Shown here in pieces: positions 1 through 10,008 of a DNA stretch of 64,000 nt. The position numbers and the translations under genes were made by a program. The stretch covers positions 1 through 64,000 of the forward strand of contig JAJSAL010000173.1 in the NCBI GenBank assembly GCA_024274705.1, written 5' to 3'. Each line of letters opens with the position of its first letter. Position 1 is the stretch's first letter. The DNA is from Spirochaetota bacterium (lineage in GTDB: Bacteria > Spirochaetota > Spirochaetia > SPDA01 > JAJSAL01). The notes beneath the pieces are model-generated. The model was not told where the DNA came from. It saw only the letters and a list, made by a program, of their open reading frames with translations, and ran no database searches.

Positions 1-127
1 CACGGAAGTTAAGCCCTCCTGCGCCGATGGTACTCCCAGCACCTTTTTCGAACCACCGTAGGGTGGAATCAAGTATGAAGTAAATCGAAAAATGGTGCTG
101 GGGGGAGAGTAGGTCATTGCCAGGCTC
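1..127 (+). rRNA. rrf: 5S ribosomal RNA, 3' portion (5' end outside window), with an expanded helix IV
   Basis: Canonical 5S segments CACGGAAGTTAAGCCC...GCGCCGATGGTACT and GGGAGAGTAGGTCATTGCCAGGC flank a ~68-nt self-complementary segment where ~16-18 nt is usual. Confidence 0.9.
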
Positions 128-388
128 TTTTTTTCCCTTTGCATTGTATCTTATTATCTTAAAAAGTAATATTCTTCGTTCATTTTATCAGTATCATCCT
201 TCTTTGCTATAATTCAGTACCATTGCACGTACTATAACCGAATACGTCGGCAGACCGGACGGAATTCTACCGGATAGTACTATGAAATTCACAATTACGG
301 GCAAGTGTGTTATTATCTTTACCATGTTCGCCCAGCTCAAATGGGAGCAGAAGGATTACCGGACAGAAAACGGCAACGGGAGTGGTAA

Positions 389-1297
389 GTGAAGAATATA
401 CCGATTTTACATGTAACTGGTGATATGCTGGCGGAAGCCTACGAAAATGCACTAGTCAGGCTCTACGAGGAAGGGATACGCTTCAGGACCCAGTATGACA
501 AAGGGGACGACCCTTTGAGTATCGATGCCACCATGAATATCACTATTAACGAGCCCGAAAAAGACCCGATGATTCACAAAGCATTCCCCGGCGGGATCGA
601 AGACCTGCGGGAATACGTGTTTGAACTTTTGGGTTTCAAGGATCACTGGGTGAAGAATATGAATGACCCGGACGATACCCGCTGGGAATACACCTATCAT
701 CAGAGACTTGCGGACTGGGGTGCCTGGAAGGAGCGGACCGATCACGGCGGGAGCCGGTCTGTAAGCCTCCTCAAGGGGAATAGCGGAAAGGGGATTGACC
801 AGGTCACAAAGGTTGTGGAAAAGCTTTCCAGGCAGCCTTTTACCCGCCAGGCCCAGATGATCACCTGGATGCCTTTCATGGATTTTGATGTGTATGATCC
901 TCCTTGTCTTCAATCCCTGTGGTACCGCCTGTTGGAGGATGGGGATGAGCTTTACCTTAACTGCAACGTCCGTTTCCGGAGTAACGATGCATGGGGAGCG
1001 AACTTCATGAACATGTTCGGTATTATTCATTTCAACAGGGAGCAGATCGCAGATCCGTTGCAGACCTATTTCGGAAAAACCGTGCGCCTTGGAAGGATGA
1101 ACTGGCACGCTGATTCCTATCATATCTATGGTAAGGATCTGGAAGCCTTTACCTCCCGATTCTGGGACAGGCTCAAATCATCCTCATTCGAGGACCGGGT
1201 GTATTATTTCAACGATCCTCTGATACAGGAAATCTGGAAAGAAGCCGAGGAAAAAGTGATGCGGAAAATCGAACAGTACGATAAGCGCGGCGGTTGA
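389..1297 (+). CDS. Thymidylate synthase family protein (archaeal-type ThyA-like), GTG start
   Basis: Motifs TRQAQMITWMPFMDFD..DPPCLQSLWYRL (catalytic Cys) and FRSNDAWGANFMNMFG match the thymidylate synthase fold. Confidence 0.75.
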   Translation: MKNIPILHVTGDMLAEAYENALVRLYEEGIRFRTQYDKGDDPLSIDATMNITINEPEKDPMIHKAFPGGIEDLREYVFELLGFKDHWVKNMNDPDDTRWEYTYHQRLADWGAWKERTDHGGSRSVSLLKGNSGKGIDQVTKVVEKLSRQPFTRQAQMITWMPFMDFDVYDPPCLQSLWYRLLEDGDELYLNCNVRFRSNDAWGANFMNMFGIIHFNREQIADPLQTYFGKTVRLGRMNWHADSYHIYGKDLEAFTSRFWDRLKSSSFEDRVYYFNDPLIQEIWKEAEEKVMRKIEQYDKRGG

Positions 1298-1404
1298 GGG
1301 CATGTTTTAAAAACCCATTTAATGGTGACGATAATGGGAAGTTTGCAAAGTGTCAAACACCGGAAATACTATTCAAGCATTTTTTTCTGCACTATACTGT
1401 AACC

Positions 1405-1734
1405 ATGCAGGAAATACTGGATGAGGTCCTGAAGACCGAAGAGGAAGCTGAAGAGGCGGTGAAAGCCGCTCATGCGAAAGGTGCTGCACTGAAGCAGGAA
1501 GCGGAAACCGCGGCCTCAGAGACGATAAGGAAAGCCAGGCAGAAAGCCCGGGAACTGATTCATGAAGGTGTTGCATCGGAAAAAGAAGAAGCAGAGCGGA
1601 AAAGAAAGGAAGCGCTGAAAAAGGCGGAAGAGGATCAAGAAGCGTTTTTCAAGAGAAAAAAGGATGCAATAGAAGAAGCCGCTGATTCCGTCGTCGAAAT
1701 CATAATCCGTATCGATGTAGAACCAGATGGTTAA
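1405..1734 (+). CDS. V/A-type ATP synthase subunit H/G-like peripheral stalk coiled coil
   Basis: Ala/Glu/Lys-rich coiled coil at head of ATPase operon; ATG at 1405 preferred over the longer ORF start. Confidence 0.7.
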   Translation: MQEILDEVLKTEEEAEEAVKAAHAKGAALKQEAETAASETIRKARQKARELIHEGVASEKEEAERKRKEALKKAEEDQEAFFKRKKDAIEEAADSVVEIIIRIDVEPDG

Positions 1735-2797
1735 ATCCAGGCTCAAACGGTATGCATACCTCAACGCCAGGCTCCGCTCCCGAATAAGTACGGTACTGAC
1801 GGACCAGGTGTTCGATCGCATGCTTCGTGCGAAGACCTTAAGCGAAGCATTTCACCATTTGACGGATACAAGGTTTGCATACCTGGAAGAGGTGTATACC
1901 CGGACCGGCGACCTTAAAATGGTGGAACTCGAGTTGTTCAGCAGAGAAATTGAACTGCTCCGTGATCTGGATAGAAATGCAGAGGACGAAATAAAACAAA
2001 TACTCAAAGCGCTATCTCTTCAGTACGAAATCGAAAATCTTAAAGGGATGCTGCGCCTCTGGTTTCAGTTCAGGATTAAACATACGGGAATCCGGAGTTC
2101 CACCGGGTATCTCTACAGGAAGACCATTGTTCACGATATCGATGTTGACGGAATCGTCAACGCCGGGAACCTGCAGGATATTATGAATCTCCTGGAACAC
2201 ACACCTTATAAAAATGTTATTGCGCCGGTGGTTCCGGAACATGGTACGATTGAGTCCCTCTTCCCCCTGGAGAATGCACTGGATATCTTTTTTTATCACC
2301 AGGTCTTTGCCGGTATCGAAGGTCTGGATGATACAGACGGAGGCATTGCAGAGCGGCTTCTGGGGATAGAGATCGATATCGAAAATCTTTCCAGGATCAT
2401 GCGTTTCACCTCCTTTTACTCAATGAAAACCGAAGAACTGTCTGATATTCTCATACCGGGAGGAAGATCTTTTGACCGGTCAACCCTCCTGGATGTCCTT
2501 CACAGGGACAACCCCCGGCAGCGCATCGAATCTCTGCTGAGCGGCAAATTTCCCGAGTGGAAAGTCATCGTTTCCCCGGACCGGGAACAGGCGAAAAACC
2601 GGCTGTTGCTGTTGGAATCGGTACTTCAAGGTATTTTAGAAAAGGAAGTCCACAGGTTACTCTTAGGTTATCCTTTTACAATCGGCATATTGCTGGCCTA
2701 TTATTTTATCAAGAGGAAGGAGACCCGAAGGCTGGTGACCCTGCTGAATGCGAAGCAGTACGGCATCTCCTTTGAGAGAGGAATGGAAGCGATATGA
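1727..2797 (+). CDS. atpC: V/A-type ATP synthase subunit C
   Basis: Position in operon; YAYLNARLRSRISTVL start; AC39-like helical protein. Confidence 0.85.
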   Translation: MVKSRLKRYAYLNARLRSRISTVLTDQVFDRMLRAKTLSEAFHHLTDTRFAYLEEVYTRTGDLKMVELELFSREIELLRDLDRNAEDEIKQILKALSLQYEIENLKGMLRLWFQFRIKHTGIRSSTGYLYRKTIVHDIDVDGIVNAGNLQDIMNLLEHTPYKNVIAPVVPEHGTIESLFPLENALDIFFYHQVFAGIEGLDDTDGGIAERLLGIEIDIENLSRIMRFTSFYSMKTEELSDILIPGGRSFDRSTLLDVLHRDNPRQRIESLLSGKFPEWKVIVSPDREQAKNRLLLLESVLQGILEKEVHRLLLGYPFTIGILLAYYFIKRKETRRLVTLLNAKQYGISFERGMEAI

Positions 2798-4821
2798 TCT
2801 TCACCACGAGGATGAGGTTTCTCTCCGCGGTAGTACTGGATACGGATATGGAAGCTGTTACCCGGGAATTGCTGCAACAGGGGGTGCTTGATTTTATCAG
2901 TATACGTGAACTGAACATCCTGGAGAGAAACAGGGTTGAAACGGTGGAGCCGAAGGTATCCGAGGCGAGGCTGAAGGAGAGCCGCCGTCGTATCGAATCG
3001 TTCCTTGATATGGTGGATATTCGGCCCGGCTATGAACATGCCCTCTCCATCGATGAGTTCGAACCTTTGGATCCGGACGCTGTGGAACGTGAACTCGATG
3101 GAATCGGGACAGAAGTTCAGGGAAGACGAAACCGCCAGGGAGAACTTCAGCAGGATATCCTGAAGCTCGAAGAAATCCGCAGGCAGTTCGATGCGTATCA
3201 GAACCTCCAGGAAGGGCTGCTCAGCAGGTCTCAGTATTCGTTCCTTTCGATACAGGCGGGGTATATCCATCCCCGGCATGTCCAGGAGTTCACCCGGGCC
3301 ATCGCGCCGTACCCGAGTGTGTACCTGGATATGGGAGCGCCGGATAAGCCTGCGTTCCTGCTCATCTCCTTAAAACGGGACGAGGCCCGGATCCGGAGTA
3401 TTCTCTCATCCGTCGGCTGGACAGATGTGGAATTCCCGGAAGAGGTCCGGCAGTCAAAGGACGATGCTCTTTCCCACATCGATACAAAACTTGCGGCCCT
3501 CCGTGAAAACCGGGACCGGTTGAACAGAGAGGTTACGGAAGTGCTTCAGGGCAGGGCGGAAAGGCTTCAGGATATATGGAAACGGTGCGCCTTGAATGAA
3601 TTGTACTATAAGATACAATCCCGGTTCGGCAAAACGGCACGGACCGTCCTTTTTTCAGGATGGTTGCCGGCGTCGAAGCAGAAAGACCTGGAAAAAGGTA
3701 TCCTGGATGTCACGGAAGGTATTGCTTTCCTGGAGTGGAAAGATCCGGACACAGCTGTCCGGATGGAAGGAGTATCTGATGTTCCTGTACAGATGAAGAA
3801 TCCGGGGTTTTTACGTCCTTTTCAGGCCATGGTTCAGAATTATGCCATTCCCGAGTACGGGACAATCGATCCCACCCCGGTTGTGGCGGTAGTATATCTG
3901 ATGATGTTCGGGCTGATGTACGGTGATGCAGGTCATGGCCTGGTTATCATGGTGGCGGGAATCATCGGCTGGGTTTTGCGAAAGCGGAGCAAAAAGGGAA
4001 CCATACTGTCCCAGTTGATAACCTGGTGCGGCGGTGCCGCTGTTATTACCGGTATACTCTATGGATCGTACTTCGGTATGCCCTGGTTCGATCCTCTGTG
4101 GTTCGATTTTCACGGCCTTATTTCAGGGCACCCCCGGACGGGGAACTTGAGGGATATCTATGATGTGCTTAAAATCACGATTTATTTCGGGATTGGTGTT
4201 ATTACCCTGGGTCTTTTCTTTAACTGGATCAACAGTATCCGGAGAAAACGGTGGTTTCATCTTTTTTTCGGTAAAGCGGGACTCCTGGGGGGATGGATAT
4301 ACGGCGCAGGAATCTATATTGCTTTTTATTTTGTGCGTCACGATTATAAAGGACTCCCACCCGGAAGGTTCATCATCTATCTTGTGGCCGTTCCTGTTGT
4401 TCTCCTCTTTTTAAAAGCACCTGTTGAATTCCAACTGCACAGGAAAGAGCATCCGGAGAAAGCATTCACACCGTTTACGGTTATTGATTTTTTCATGGAG
4501 TGGATTGTAGAGATTCTGGAAATCTTTTCAGGATACCTTGCCAATACCCTCTCCTTTATGCGGGTGGCGGGGCTGGGAATCGCCCACGCAAGCCTGATGA
4601 TCGCGTTTTTCTCTATCGCACGAATGGTATCCCCCGGGGATGGGATTTCCATCGGGGGTATTGCCGTACTTGTTGCAGGAAATGCCATGGTTATCGTACT
4701 GGAAGGGCTCTCTGCAGGTATCCAGGCACTCCGGCTTAACTATTATGAATTCTTTAATAAGTATTTTACCGGTTCCGGTAAAGCCTATGCCCCTATTTCG
4801 TTGAAAGGATCGCTGAATTGA
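2794..4821 (+). CDS. atpI: V/A-type ATP synthase subunit I
   Basis: N-terminal coiled coil and C-terminal multi-TM region with FGLMYGDAGHG and NTLSFMRVAGLGIAHASL motifs. Confidence 0.95.
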   Translation: MIFTTRMRFLSAVVLDTDMEAVTRELLQQGVLDFISIRELNILERNRVETVEPKVSEARLKESRRRIESFLDMVDIRPGYEHALSIDEFEPLDPDAVERELDGIGTEVQGRRNRQGELQQDILKLEEIRRQFDAYQNLQEGLLSRSQYSFLSIQAGYIHPRHVQEFTRAIAPYPSVYLDMGAPDKPAFLLISLKRDEARIRSILSSVGWTDVEFPEEVRQSKDDALSHIDTKLAALRENRDRLNREVTEVLQGRAERLQDIWKRCALNELYYKIQSRFGKTARTVLFSGWLPASKQKDLEKGILDVTEGIAFLEWKDPDTAVRMEGVSDVPVQMKNPGFLRPFQAMVQNYAIPEYGTIDPTPVVAVVYLMMFGLMYGDAGHGLVIMVAGIIGWVLRKRSKKGTILSQLITWCGGAAVITGILYGSYFGMPWFDPLWFDFHGLISGHPRTGNLRDIYDVLKITIYFGIGVITLGLFFNWINSIRRKRWFHLFFGKAGLLGGWIYGAGIYIAFYFVRHDYKGLPPGRFIIYLVAVPVVLLFLKAPVEFQLHRKEHPEKAFTPFTVIDFFMEWIVEILEIFSGYLANTLSFMRVAGLGIAHASLMIAFFSIARMVSPGDGISIGGIAVLVAGNAMVIVLEGLSAGIQALRLNYYEFFNKYFTGSGKAYAPISLKGSLN

Positions 4822-4857
4822 GTCATGTTGTATCACTTGCATCACAGGAGGAGAGAG

Positions 4858-5235
4858 ATGAATAATGAAAAGCGCAGATTTATGAAAAAGGTTCGGTTAT
4901 CAGTAATCATCGTTTCCGTAATAATCATCGTTTCCGGTTTCGTTACAGTAACCGGTACCTTTGCCCAGGAAAGCTCCGGGACCGGCTCTTCCGGAAAGGA
5001 ACTGACCGCATACCAGGCGGAAGTAGCCAAGTTCGGTCTTATAGCGGCAGCCCTGGCATTCGGTCTCGGTGCCCTGGGTGCGGGCATTGCCATTTCCCAT
5101 GTTGGTGCTGCAGCCATGGGTGCAATTGCGGAAAAGCCGGAGGTCGCGTCCCAGGCTCTCATCTTTATCGCTTTAGCGGAGGGTTTGGTTGTGTTCGGGT
5201 TTATCGCGGCCCTGATGATTCTGGGTAAGTTTTAA
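4858..5235 (+). CDS. atpK: V/A-type ATP synthase subunit K (rotor c-ring) with signal-like N-terminus
   Basis: Two-helix proteolipid, GLGALGAGIAISHVGAAAMGAIAEKPE / ALAEGLVVFGFIAALMIL; AGGAGG upstream of ATG 4858. Confidence 0.93.
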   Translation: MNNEKRRFMKKVRLSVIIVSVIIIVSGFVTVTGTFAQESSGTGSSGKELTAYQAEVAKFGLIAAALAFGLGALGAGIAISHVGAAAMGAIAEKPEVASQALIFIALAEGLVVFGFIAALMILGKF

Positions 5236-5246
5236 ACGGGCATTCC

Positions 5247-5552
5247 ATGAAATATATGGTACTGGGAGACGAGGACACCGTTCTGGGGTTCGGTATGGCC
5301 GGTGTTGATGGTTACATCGCCGAGAACAGAGCCGAAGCGGAGAAATACTTCAACGAAATCCGGAAGGATAATGATGCAGGTATCGTGCTCATTACTGAAA
5401 GAATCGCGGAAACGATACGGCCCCTTATAGACCACCTGATGTTTGCAGAAGAATTCCCCCTCATCCTGGAAATTCCGGACAGGAGAGGAAAGCTGGAAGG
5501 GAAGCTCGGTATACGTGAGATGGTAAATACGGCAATCGGATTGAAAATATAG
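5247..5552 (+). CDS. atpF: V/A-type ATP synthase subunit F
   Basis: Size, order, and LGFGMAGVDG / IVLITERIAETIRP motif. Confidence 0.88.
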   Translation: MKYMVLGDEDTVLGFGMAGVDGYIAENRAEAEKYFNEIRKDNDAGIVLITERIAETIRPLIDHLMFAEEFPLILEIPDRRGKLEGKLGIREMVNTAIGLKI

Positions 5553-6211
5553 TGGAACCCAACACGGAAACAGGAAAAGAAGCGATTCTCTCAGGGATAA
5601 CAAAGGACGCCCAATCCGAGGCTGCCCGGATCCTGGAGGATTCCCGGCGGAGTGCGGAAGGGCGGAAGAAGTCCGCGGAACAGCAGGCGGAATCCATCAT
5701 CCGGGAGGCGGAAAGGACCTTAGCGGAACAGCAGGAGGCTATCCGCCGGGTCGTGCGGTCCGGGCAGGAACACTCCATCAAGCGTATGCATCTCGCCTCC
5801 CTGGACAGGGTAATCCGGGATGTAGTGCAGAAGGCGGAGGCGAAGCTGGAACGTATGATAGAAGATCCGGGATACAGGAAAGTGCTCCTCGGCTGGGTCG
5901 TTGAAGCGGGAGTAGGTCTGGACACACACGCGGCCAGTGTCCGGACGTCTATGAAGGAAGAACCACTTATAGATGATGATCTGCTGAAAGAGACCCGGAA
6001 ACAGATAGAAGAAATCACCGGGAGACCGATTGCCCTTACCGCATCGGTGGAGAGACCCCTGGCAAATCAGGGCGTGGTTCTTTCTTCCGAGGACGGAAGG
6101 CGGGCGTACAACAACCTGGTAAAAACCAGGATCCAGCGGTACAGAACGGAAATACGGAACCTTATCTACCGTCTGGTCTTTGATGAAGAATACGGGGTAC
6201 ACCATGAGTGA
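5552..6211 (+). CDS. atpE: V/A-type ATP synthase subunit E
   Basis: Coiled-coil N-terminus, order in operon, GTG start overlapping stop of F. Confidence 0.85.
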   Translation: MEPNTETGKEAILSGITKDAQSEAARILEDSRRSAEGRKKSAEQQAESIIREAERTLAEQQEAIRRVVRSGQEHSIKRMHLASLDRVIRDVVQKAEAKLERMIEDPGYRKVLLGWVVEAGVGLDTHAASVRTSMKEEPLIDDDLLKETRKQIEEITGRPIALTASVERPLANQGVVLSSEDGRRAYNNLVKTRIQRYRTEIRNLIYRLVFDEEYGVHHE

Positions 6212-7973
6212 GCGGATTGTCGGCAGAGTGAGCAGGATAAACGGACCGGTGGTGGAAGCCCGGAACATCGAAGATGCCATGATGATGGAGCTTGTCTACG
6301 TCGGAGAAGACCGTCTGGTGGGAGAGATCGTGAAACTCGCCGGAGACCGGGCCGTGATCCAGGTATACGAGGACACAACAGGTGTTGCTCCCGGTGAAAA
6401 CGTCTATGGTACCGGAACGTCCCTTTCAGCAGAACTAGGTCCAGGGCTGATCGGTACGATTTACGATGGTATCCAACGGCCCCTGGAAAAAATACGGGAT
6501 CTTTCCGGAACCTTCATAGATAAGGGTCTTAAGCTGCCCCCGCTGGACAGGGAAAAATCCTGGGAATTTGTACCCCTCGTCAAAGAGGGTGATTCAGTAA
6601 CCGGTGGCACGATTATCGGCACGGTAAAGGAGACTTCCCAGATTGAACACAGGATTCTCCTCCCTCCGGATGTTTATGGAACGGTGGAGGAGATCGGGCG
6701 GCAGGGTTCCTTCACCCTCGAACATCCTGTAGGCATGATCCGCTCCGGAAGTGATGTGAAAGAGATCTATATGAGCCACACCTGGCCGATCCGGAAAGCC
6801 CGGCCGGTTGCGGAAAGGATGAGCCTGGATGTTCCCCTGTTGACGGGTCAGCGGGTGATCGATACACTCTTTCCCATTGCAAAGGGCGGTGCTGTCACTA
6901 TTCCCGGGGGGTTCGGTACAGGCAAAACCATGACCCAACAGGCTGTTGCTAAATGGTGTGACGCGGATATCATCATGTACATCGGATGCGGGGAACGGGG
7001 AAATGAGATGACCGATGTACTCAAGGAGTTTCCGGGCCTCATCGATCCCAGGACAGGACAGAGCCTTATGGAGCGGACCATCCTGATCGCCAACACTTCC
7101 AACATGCCTGTATCCGCAAGGGAAGCCAGTATCTATACAGGTATAACCATGGCGGAGTATTACCGGGATCAGGGATACCATGTAGCGGTCATGGCGGACT
7201 CCACGTCCAGGTGGGCGGAAGCGTTGCGGGAACTGTCGGGCCGGATGGAAGAAATGCCTGCAGAAGAGGGGTTCCCGGCATACCTGCCTACCCGGATTGC
7301 GGGTTTTTACGAACGGGCTGGGTACATGCGGACCCTGGCCGGACGGGAAGGATCAGTTACCGTCATCGGTGCGGTCTCCCCTCCGGGAGGTGACTTTTCC
7401 GAACCGGTAACACAGCATACCAAGCGGTATGTCCGTTGTTTCTGGGCCCTGGACAGGCATCTTGCCAATGCCCGGCACTACCCTGCTATCTCCTGGCTGG
7501 AAAGTTACAGTGAGTATCTTCCCGATATCGAACACTGGTGGGAGAGCAATGCGGGTGTGAACTGGAAGAAAAACCGGATTGAGATCATGGACCTTCTGCA
7601 GAGGGAAGTAAGGCTCCAGCAGGTTGTCAAACTCGTAGGTCCTGATGCGCTGCCGGACAGCCAGCGTTTTATCATCGAGGTGTGCACCCTGTTCAAGAAC
7701 GCCTTTCTCCAGCAGAACGCCTTCGATGAGATAGACCGGTATTCTTCTGTTTCCAAACAGGCCAGGATGCTCGATCTTATCCTTCATTACTACAGAAGGG
7801 GTTCGGAAGTGATCCGCCGGGGGGTTACCCTGGTCAAACTCAAACGCATGAAAATTCTCTCCGAACTGGCGAAGATGAAACTGACCATACCGAATGAAGA
7901 TTCAGAGAGGTTCGACAGGTTGGAAATGCGCCTGGACCGGTCTCTGGATCAATTGGAGTCGATCCATGCTTAA
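6204..7973 (+). CDS. atpA: V/A-type ATP synthase catalytic subunit A
   Basis: Walker [36 protein letters not shown]. Confidence 0.98.
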
Positions 7974-9357
7974 GGTGTCAAAACTTAAAGAAGGTGTCGA
8001 GTATATCGGATTGACGAAAATCGAAGGCCCCCTTATTTTCGTGGAGAACACCCATCCCGTAGGTTACCGGGAACTTGTCGAGTGTGTAGTAGACCGGGAA
8101 ACCAGGCTCGGCATCGTGCTGGATACTTCGGAAAAGGTGGTGATCGTCCAGCTGTTTGAAAGTACATCCGGCCTTACCCTGCCGAATACCCGGGTCCGGT
8201 TCAGAGGACGGCCCCTTACCCTGGGGGTAAGTGAAATGATGCTGGGACGGATGTTCAACGGTCTGGGTACCCCCATCGACGGCGGGCCTCCCCCTCCGGG
8301 GGCGGAAGAGAGGGACATCAATGGAAAGCCCATCAATCCTACGTCCCGGGAGTATCCCCAGGACTTCATTCAGACAGGACTCTCAGCCATCGATGGGATG
8401 AATACCCTGATACGTGGGCAGAAATTACCGATTTTTTCCGGAAACGGCCTCCCTCACAACGAAGTTGCCGCACAGATTGCACGTCAGGCAAAGATTCTGG
8501 GTGGAGAGACCGATTTCGCAGTGGTCTTCGCGGCTATGGGAGTAAAACACGATGTCGCCCGGTACTTTATGCGTTCTTTCGAGGAATCGGGGACCCTGGA
8601 CAAGGTGGCCCTGTTCCTCTCCCTTGCGGATGATCCTTCCATCGAGCGCCTTATTACGCCGAGGACAGCCCTTACCCTGGCGGAGTATCTTGCCTTCGAA
8701 CGGGACATGCATGTCCTTGTGATTATGACGGATATGACCAATTACTGCGAATCCTTACGGGAGATTTCTACAATCCGGGGAGAAATACCATCGAGGAAAG
8801 GGTATCCCGGGTATCTCTATTCAGACCTGGCCGAGTTATACGAGCGGTCCGGCATGATAAAGGGACACAAAGGGTCTATCACCCAGCTCCCGGTGCTCAC
8901 CATGCCGAATGATGATATTTCCCACCCGGTTCCGGACCTTACCGGGTACATCACGGAAGGACAGATCGTGTTCGAGCGTGAAATGTACGGAAGGAGCATC
9001 TATCCGCCGGTGGCGGGACTGCCTTCCCTGTCCAGGCTGATGAAAGACGGTATCGGAGAGGGCATGACCAGGGGAGACCATCCCCATCTTGCGAGCCAGC
9101 TCTTTGCCGCATACAGCTATGTAAAAGATGTACGGAATCTCGCCTCTGTTATCGGTGAGGAGGAATTGACACCCCTGGATCACCAGTACCTGGAGTTCGG
9201 TGAGTTTTTCGAAAAGAAGTTTGTCACTCAGGGGATCGATGAAGAGCGGTCCATCGAGGAAACACTGGATCTGGGGTGGCGGGCGTTGAGTATCCTTCCG
9301 GTGGAGGAACTCCACAGGGTAACAGAAGAGGAACTGGATGAATATTACGGCGGGTGA
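7966..9357 (+). CDS. atpB: V/A-type ATP synthase subunit B
   Basis: [39 protein letters not shown] 7966 preferred over longer ORF. Confidence 0.97.
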
Positions 9358-9375
9358 CCTGGTGATCTTGAAGTT

Positions 9376-10008
9376 ATGAGACGTGTACCTCCTACAAAAA
9401 CACAGCTTCTCAAGATAAAAGAAGAGCTGGATCTCGCCCGGCTGGGTCACGATCTGCTGGACCAGAAGCGTAATATCCTGATCATTGAACTCCTGACCCT
9501 GGTGGATCAGGCTGTAGATTACCAGGAACGGATCGAAAAGTCTCTCGCCGCGGCCTTCGGGTCCCTTGAAGATGCGGTCCTGCATATGGGAAAACGGAAC
9601 ATTCTTTCAGTTACCCAGGGGATCAACATAGAGGCCGAGATTACGCTGAAACAGCGGAGAGTGATGGGTGTTTCGATTCCGGTTGTGGAGACGGACTACA
9701 CTGAACACGGCCCCTATTTCAGCCTGATAGGAACGGGATTCAGGATCGATGAAGCGATGAGTAACTTCAAGGATACTCTTAAGACGGCAGGTCGATTGGC
9801 GGAGCTGAAAGTATCCATCATGCGTCTTGCCAGGGAAGTTAAAAAAACGATACGTAAGGTGAATGCCCTGGATAAAATAGCAATACCGGACCTGGAAGAG
9901 ACCCACACCCATATCTCGAACCGCCTCGAGGAAAATGAACGGGACATGCTTATCCTGATGAAACGGGTGAAAGCGAGGTTAGAAGGGGGGAGGAGAAACG
10001 GGATATGA
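9376..10008 (+). CDS. atpD: V/A-type ATP synthase subunit D
   Basis: PTKTQLLKIKEELDLARLGHDLLDQKRNILI. Confidence 0.95.
   Translation: MRRVPPTKTQLLKIKEELDLARLGHDLLDQKRNILIIELLTLVDQAVDYQERIEKSLAAAFGSLEDAVLHMGKRNILSVTQGINIEAEITLKQRRVMGVSIPVVETDYTEHGPYFSLIGTGFRIDEAMSNFKDTLKTAGRLAELKVSIMRLAREVKKTIRKVNALDKIAIPDLEETHTHISNRLEENERDMLILMKRVKARLEGGRRNGI

Follow-up and report, generated by a model that had tools for sequence, protein, structure and literature searches.

A hairpin module in loop D of a spirochaete 5S rRNA that may be excised

Few RNAs are as constant in size as 5S rRNA. Expanded prokaryotic 5S genes, which Stepanov & Fox define by an insert of at least 13 nt inside an intact conserved core, are rare, with 89 genes in 51 strains according to their survey (Stepanov & Fox 2021, PMC7812874). 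The groups named there are Clostridiales, Halanaerobiales, Thermoanaerobacterales, Alteromonadales and Halobacteriales, and a word search of the main text found no spirochaete named. Our pattern scan of 85,462 species, with one genome each, gave 28 matches, so that both sources agree with the initial annotation of the present locus, which had called such genes rare in prokaryotes.

The expanded 5S rRNAs of that survey carry self-paired inserts in a normal core and show a patchy spread with hints of horizontal transfer, as does the one described here. Desulfitobacterium dichloroeliminans has a 69-nt insertion in helix IV, beside pseudogene copies, and this insert was suspected to be non-functional (PMC7812874). 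The present insertion is also at helix IV, but every copy found here is expanded, loop D is the insertion site, and covariation is seen in several arms. The 5S rRNA of Halococcus morrhuae, with a 108-nt insert studied by cryo-EM (PMC7530397), likewise has an insert that is large and structured in its sole 5S type, and it differs in being archaeal, in its exposed insertion site (104.1-105) and in that retention of the insert was shown. The intervening sequences (IVSs) of bacterial 23S rRNA, as in Coxiella burnetii (PMC4990558), resemble the present arm in lying at an rRNA helix, in their patchy and apparently transferable nature, and in a stem suited to RNase III; here, in contrast, the host molecule is 5S rRNA, the insert has no ORF, and excision is putative. 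A literature search, with most subscription papers outside its coverage, found no further expanded or split bacterial 5S rRNA besides PMC7812874 and H. morrhuae. New in the present case are the occurrence in spirochaetes, the position at loop D, the expansion of all copies found, the covarying arms and the sign of transfer.

A 5S rRNA gene with an enlarged helix IV

The window, a stretch of 64,000 nt that was analyzed as a whole, starts inside a true 5S rRNA gene in which loop D, the tip of helix IV, holds a hairpin module of ~50 nt. The gene is cut open by the contig edge, as base 1 of the window is base 1 of contig C148 of the genome (G000). The first ~44 nt of the gene are absent because of this assembly break and not because of the gene itself. 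The Rfam 5S covariance search proposed in the initial annotation matched window positions 1-125 to RF00001 (E 0.029), with the match truncated on its 5' side. The score is below the gathering score of 38 bits because of the truncation and the insert. For the same reason, a whole-genome search of G000 with RF00001 gave no match over threshold, and RF02541 gave none because the 23S is missing from the bin. G000 is a fragmented bin with an estimated contamination of 7.7%, and a search of a plasmid collection gave no match. There is no sequence upstream of the 5S in G000; the order of 23S followed by 5S is seen in three other loci (L072, L022 and L080).

The loop E motifs GATGGTACT (26-34) and GGGAGAGTAGG (103-113) are separated by 68 nt, exactly as first annotated, and the same interval is ~10-18 nt in relatives of the same class. 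The core motifs are intact up to the contig edge. The stems originally proposed, CCCAGCACC (35-43) with GGTGCTGGG (94-102) and TTTTTCGA (44-51) with TCGAAAAA (85-92), have correct coordinates and pairing, and the apical CCACC (53-57), GTAG (58-61) and GGTGG (62-66) are also correctly placed. Only the extent of the basal helix needs revision, as it is two pairs longer and forms 11 bp between 33-43 and 94-104. Helix IV thus reaches 19 bp with a single bulge, and beyond it lie an internal loop and a small terminal hairpin (Table 1). The proposal of one long arm is borne out by folding: the arm alone (72 nt) reaches -36.5 kcal/mol with a z-score of -7.1, and 0 of 2000 dinucleotide shuffles are as stable. 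This z-score and the covariation described below indicate that the insert pairs with itself and leaves the core free.

A comparison of the 5S copies in the genome had also been called for. DNA searches of G000 found two 5S loci, C148:1-126 and C18:1-126, and both carry the arm. The two contigs are identical over exactly 141 bases and diverge afterwards, so an expanded 5S stands at the end of at least two operons. A k-mer of 141 is used by common metagenome assemblers, and we infer that the identical stretch is a repeat, the rRNA operon, cut at this k-mer. We note that the shared 141-mer start was also considered as an argument excluding a normal third copy, and this was dropped, as the de Bruijn graph argument does not permit it. 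No normal 5S copy was detected in G000, a fragmented bin that likewise has no 23S.

Table 1 Features of the 5S locus in the window
Feature	Position	Strand	Basis
3' part of 5S rRNA gene (model 45-120 plus arm)	1..125	+	RF00001, 25.4 bits; full-length homologue L072:378-548
Stretch identical letter for letter to G000:C18:1-141 (second copy)	1..141	+	contigs diverge beyond
Helix IV, 5' strand (CUCCCAGCACC), 11 bp with 94-104	33..43	+	fold; covariation over five arm types
Distal stem, 5' strand (UUUUUCGA), 8 bp with 85-92; UUUUCGAACC also in G036 (other family)	44..51	+	fold, comparison
Apical hairpin CCACC-GUAG-GGUGG, variable among relatives	53..66	+	fold, comparison
A/U-rich 3' side of internal loop; UAAA beside distal stem kept in L072 and G036	67..84	+	comparison
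Distal stem, 3' strand (UCGAAAAA)	85..92	+	fold, comparison
Single bulged U at junction of distal stem and helix IV, near the normal place of loop D	93..93	+	fold
Helix IV, 3' strand (GGUGCUGGGGG)	94..104	+	fold, covariation
Loop E 3' strand, helix V and helix I 3' strand (AGAGUAGG...UGCCAGGC)	105..125	+	Rfam match
Probable terminator, a T-rich run behind the gene	126..134	+	sequence; relatives laid out alike

Downstream of the gene, window positions 127-355, which lead to a thymidylate synthase-like gene, resemble bits of TrkH/TrkA-like potassium-uptake genes (127-211, 205-259 and 284-332). These genes are intact at the equivalent place in L118, and the stretch is apparently a decayed, mostly deleted trkH-trkA pair. 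Further on, a V/A-type ATP synthase-like gene cluster, common in spirochaetes, occupies 1294-10008, with subunit-like ORFs at 1727, 2794, 4825, 5552, 6180, 7894 and 9376, named from their translations only.

Related arms and selection on the stem

The pattern scan also found a complete relative (L072), on contig CAJVWU010000043.1. Its full 171-nt 5S (378-548) matches RF00001 over model positions 1-120 with 87.4 bits, above the gathering score, and begins 31 nt past a spirochaete-type 23S 3' end. Between the window and L072, the arm stems are equal letter for letter and the internal loop is fully conserved, and the apex alone differs. The thymidylate synthase-like gene downstream, named from its translation, is 86% identical to its counterpart in the window. 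Therefore, the annotated 5S gene with a ~50-nt expansion of helix IV stands, being carried by both G000 copies and by a complete, 23S-linked relative. A normal 5S in other assemblies had been named as evidence against it, and the sole near relative found bears the same arm.

The record of the L072 contig (also L118, G395:C43:18000-35340) is labelled Bacteroidia. This label is wrong for the L072 stretch, as the contig is a chimera. The left side carries ribosomal protein genes and the 5' part of the 23S, the latter with only ~70-78% identity to the compared spirochaetes, and the contig becomes spirochaete-like (80-96%) ~1800 nt into the 23S. A Bacteroidia-like left side is joined to a spirochaete right side inside the 23S rRNA gene, and another contig of the same MAG has an ordinary Bacteroidia-type 5S.

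Within the class, real arms were found in 5 of 395 genomes, namely G000 and four other Spirochaetales MAGs with arms at loop D/helix IV. One of the four (G036) has a homologous distal module, and the other three (G017, G124 and G183; Tobar G27, Zod_Metabat.749 and.353) have other sequences, with weak similarity to the window in G183 and little or none in G124 and G017. G017 and G183 each have two 5S copies, all expanded, and no normal 5S was found in G000, G017 or G183. The two G017 copies have identical 5S cores, and the distal arm is the only difference between them. Helix IV is normal in G207 and G140, from the family of G036, and in G001, from the order of the window; the arm thus shows the patchiness of an IVS.

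The distal module that G036 has in common with the window, UUUUCGAACC...UAAAUCGAAAA, scores above all 1000 shuffles. The helix base of G036 (CUGCCCC/GGGGUGG) and its flank GGAAGAGUAGG are of its own family's type, as in G124. Since the module sits on an own-family core and base while G207 and G140 are normal, the likeness suggests that the module was transferred without the rest of the gene, but descent from a common ancestor with later losses may also explain it. A match to UUUUCGAACC...AAAUCGAAAA falls within a protein-coding gene of G038 and was set aside as chance.

Other candidates among the 28 matches of the scan were rejected as tandem duplications of 5S pieces (for example L050, L054, L056, L060, L063, L066, L068, L069, L071 and L074), as spill of the pattern beyond a normal 5S (L053, L055, L057, L059, L062 and L070), or as poorly folding or odd-context matches (L047, L048, L052, L065 and L067). 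The cultured Anaerococcus nagyae DSM 101193 (L073, NZ_JAGGLS010000010.1) has 41 nt between the motifs in helix IV, forming a modest arm of -11 kcal/mol, which is a possible independent expansion of helix IV. Deltaproteobacteria RBG_13_43_22 (L061) has a slightly enlarged helix IV region, with 30 nt between the motifs and a second small hairpin.

Comparison of the arms shows a loop-D expansion under selection for structure. For nine basal pairs counted without gaps over five arm types, all 45 of 45 cells are standard pairs, and basal pairs 7, 8 and 9 occur as three, four and three pair types. When the 3' strands are permuted in all 120 ways, the true assignment alone gives pairing at every variable position. 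This basal covariation, together with the G017 copies that differ only in the distal arm, shows that the stem of the arm is held while the apex drifts. Each of the arms forms an almost unbroken helix with at least ~17 pairs.

The fate of the arm in the ribosome

Loop D adjoins the H39 loop and the base of H42 of 23S rRNA (PMC7283268), and Stepanov & Fox judge expansion of helix IV sterically disfavoured (PMC7812874). When the 23S of G017 (L089), the one complete 23S examined from an expanded lineage, was aligned with those of E. coli and of relatives with a normal 5S, no distinguishing indel was found at H39, H42-44 or H89. Since this docking site is unchanged, no room has visibly been made for the arm, which would then either escape by kinking or be cut out. 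The spirochaete 23S genes compared have two insertions in common, one of ~45-47 nt near E. coli position 274 and one of ~32 nt near position 292.

We slightly prefer excision, because loop D extended by 19 bp would, if left uncut, hit H39/H42 of the 23S. In this reading, to which we give a probability of about 0.5, a 5S with a hairpin module in loop D would be transcribed together with the 23S and used, and the arm would be a double-stranded substrate for RNase III or a comparable nuclease, as in 23S IVSs, which are typically removed by RNase III with no religation of the flanks. The ribosome would then contain a two-piece 5S, its parts kept together by the GC-rich base of helix IV. An RNase III gene is present in G000. 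An IVS stem suited to RNase III is about 20 bp long, and the window arm has 19 bp plus a bulge. A partial parallel is an E. coli strain that is viable with an engineered, circularly permuted 5S. Its opening is at loop D, and the ends there are joined to H42 of the 23S (PMC7283268). The wider picture, a horizontally transferable module in spirochaete loop D whose putative excision yields a natural two-piece 5S, is more tentative.

Overall, excision seems slightly more likely than retention, a serious rival that we place somewhat short of even odds. If retained, the arm would be a true expansion segment that bends at the bulge or mismatch which every arm type except G183 has at a height of 9-11 bp; it would thereby leave the docking cavity, and project into free space or touch a ribosomal protein or the 23S. 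The recurrence of this bulge or mismatch at about equal height speaks for retention, as does the conservation of the stem letters and of the internal loop AACC/UAAA, which the window shares with L072 and partly with G036. Such conservation seems to exceed the needs of a mere nuclease substrate and counts against excision. The two expanded prokaryotic 5S examined at the RNA level, in H. morrhuae and Thermoanaerobacterium thermosaccharolyticum, also keep their inserts, at exposed sites (PMC7812874). Against retention are the closeness of loop D to H39 and H42, the lack of a compensating change in the G017 23S, and the free variation of arm length, apex and sequence among species.

It is improbable that these are decaying or unused copies while a normal 5S elsewhere does the work. 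Decaying copies are described in Peptococcaceae and Pseudoalteromonas, and other taxa are known to have expanded pseudogenes (PMC7812874). A normal copy could be missing from a bin as fragmented as G000, but loop E, helix V and the 3' part of helix I are conserved, the stem shows compensatory changes, L072 has a complete core linked to a 23S, and both copies are expanded in each of G000, G017 and G183. An artefact of assembly or binning is more improbable still and largely refuted: the gene lies at a contig edge in a partly contaminated bin and the L072 contig is itself chimeric, but the arm is internal and palindromic, the same arm or site occurs with compensatory differences across independently assembled MAGs, and duplication artefacts look quite different.

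These findings extend expanded 5S rRNA to spirochaetes. They also indicate that expanded 5S genes, when truncated, can drop under the Rfam threshold. Loop D had been judged too crowded for inserts, yet there are species in which all 5S genes found carry one. An insert at this spot forces a choice: either the ribosome houses the arm, or the 5S works in two pieces.
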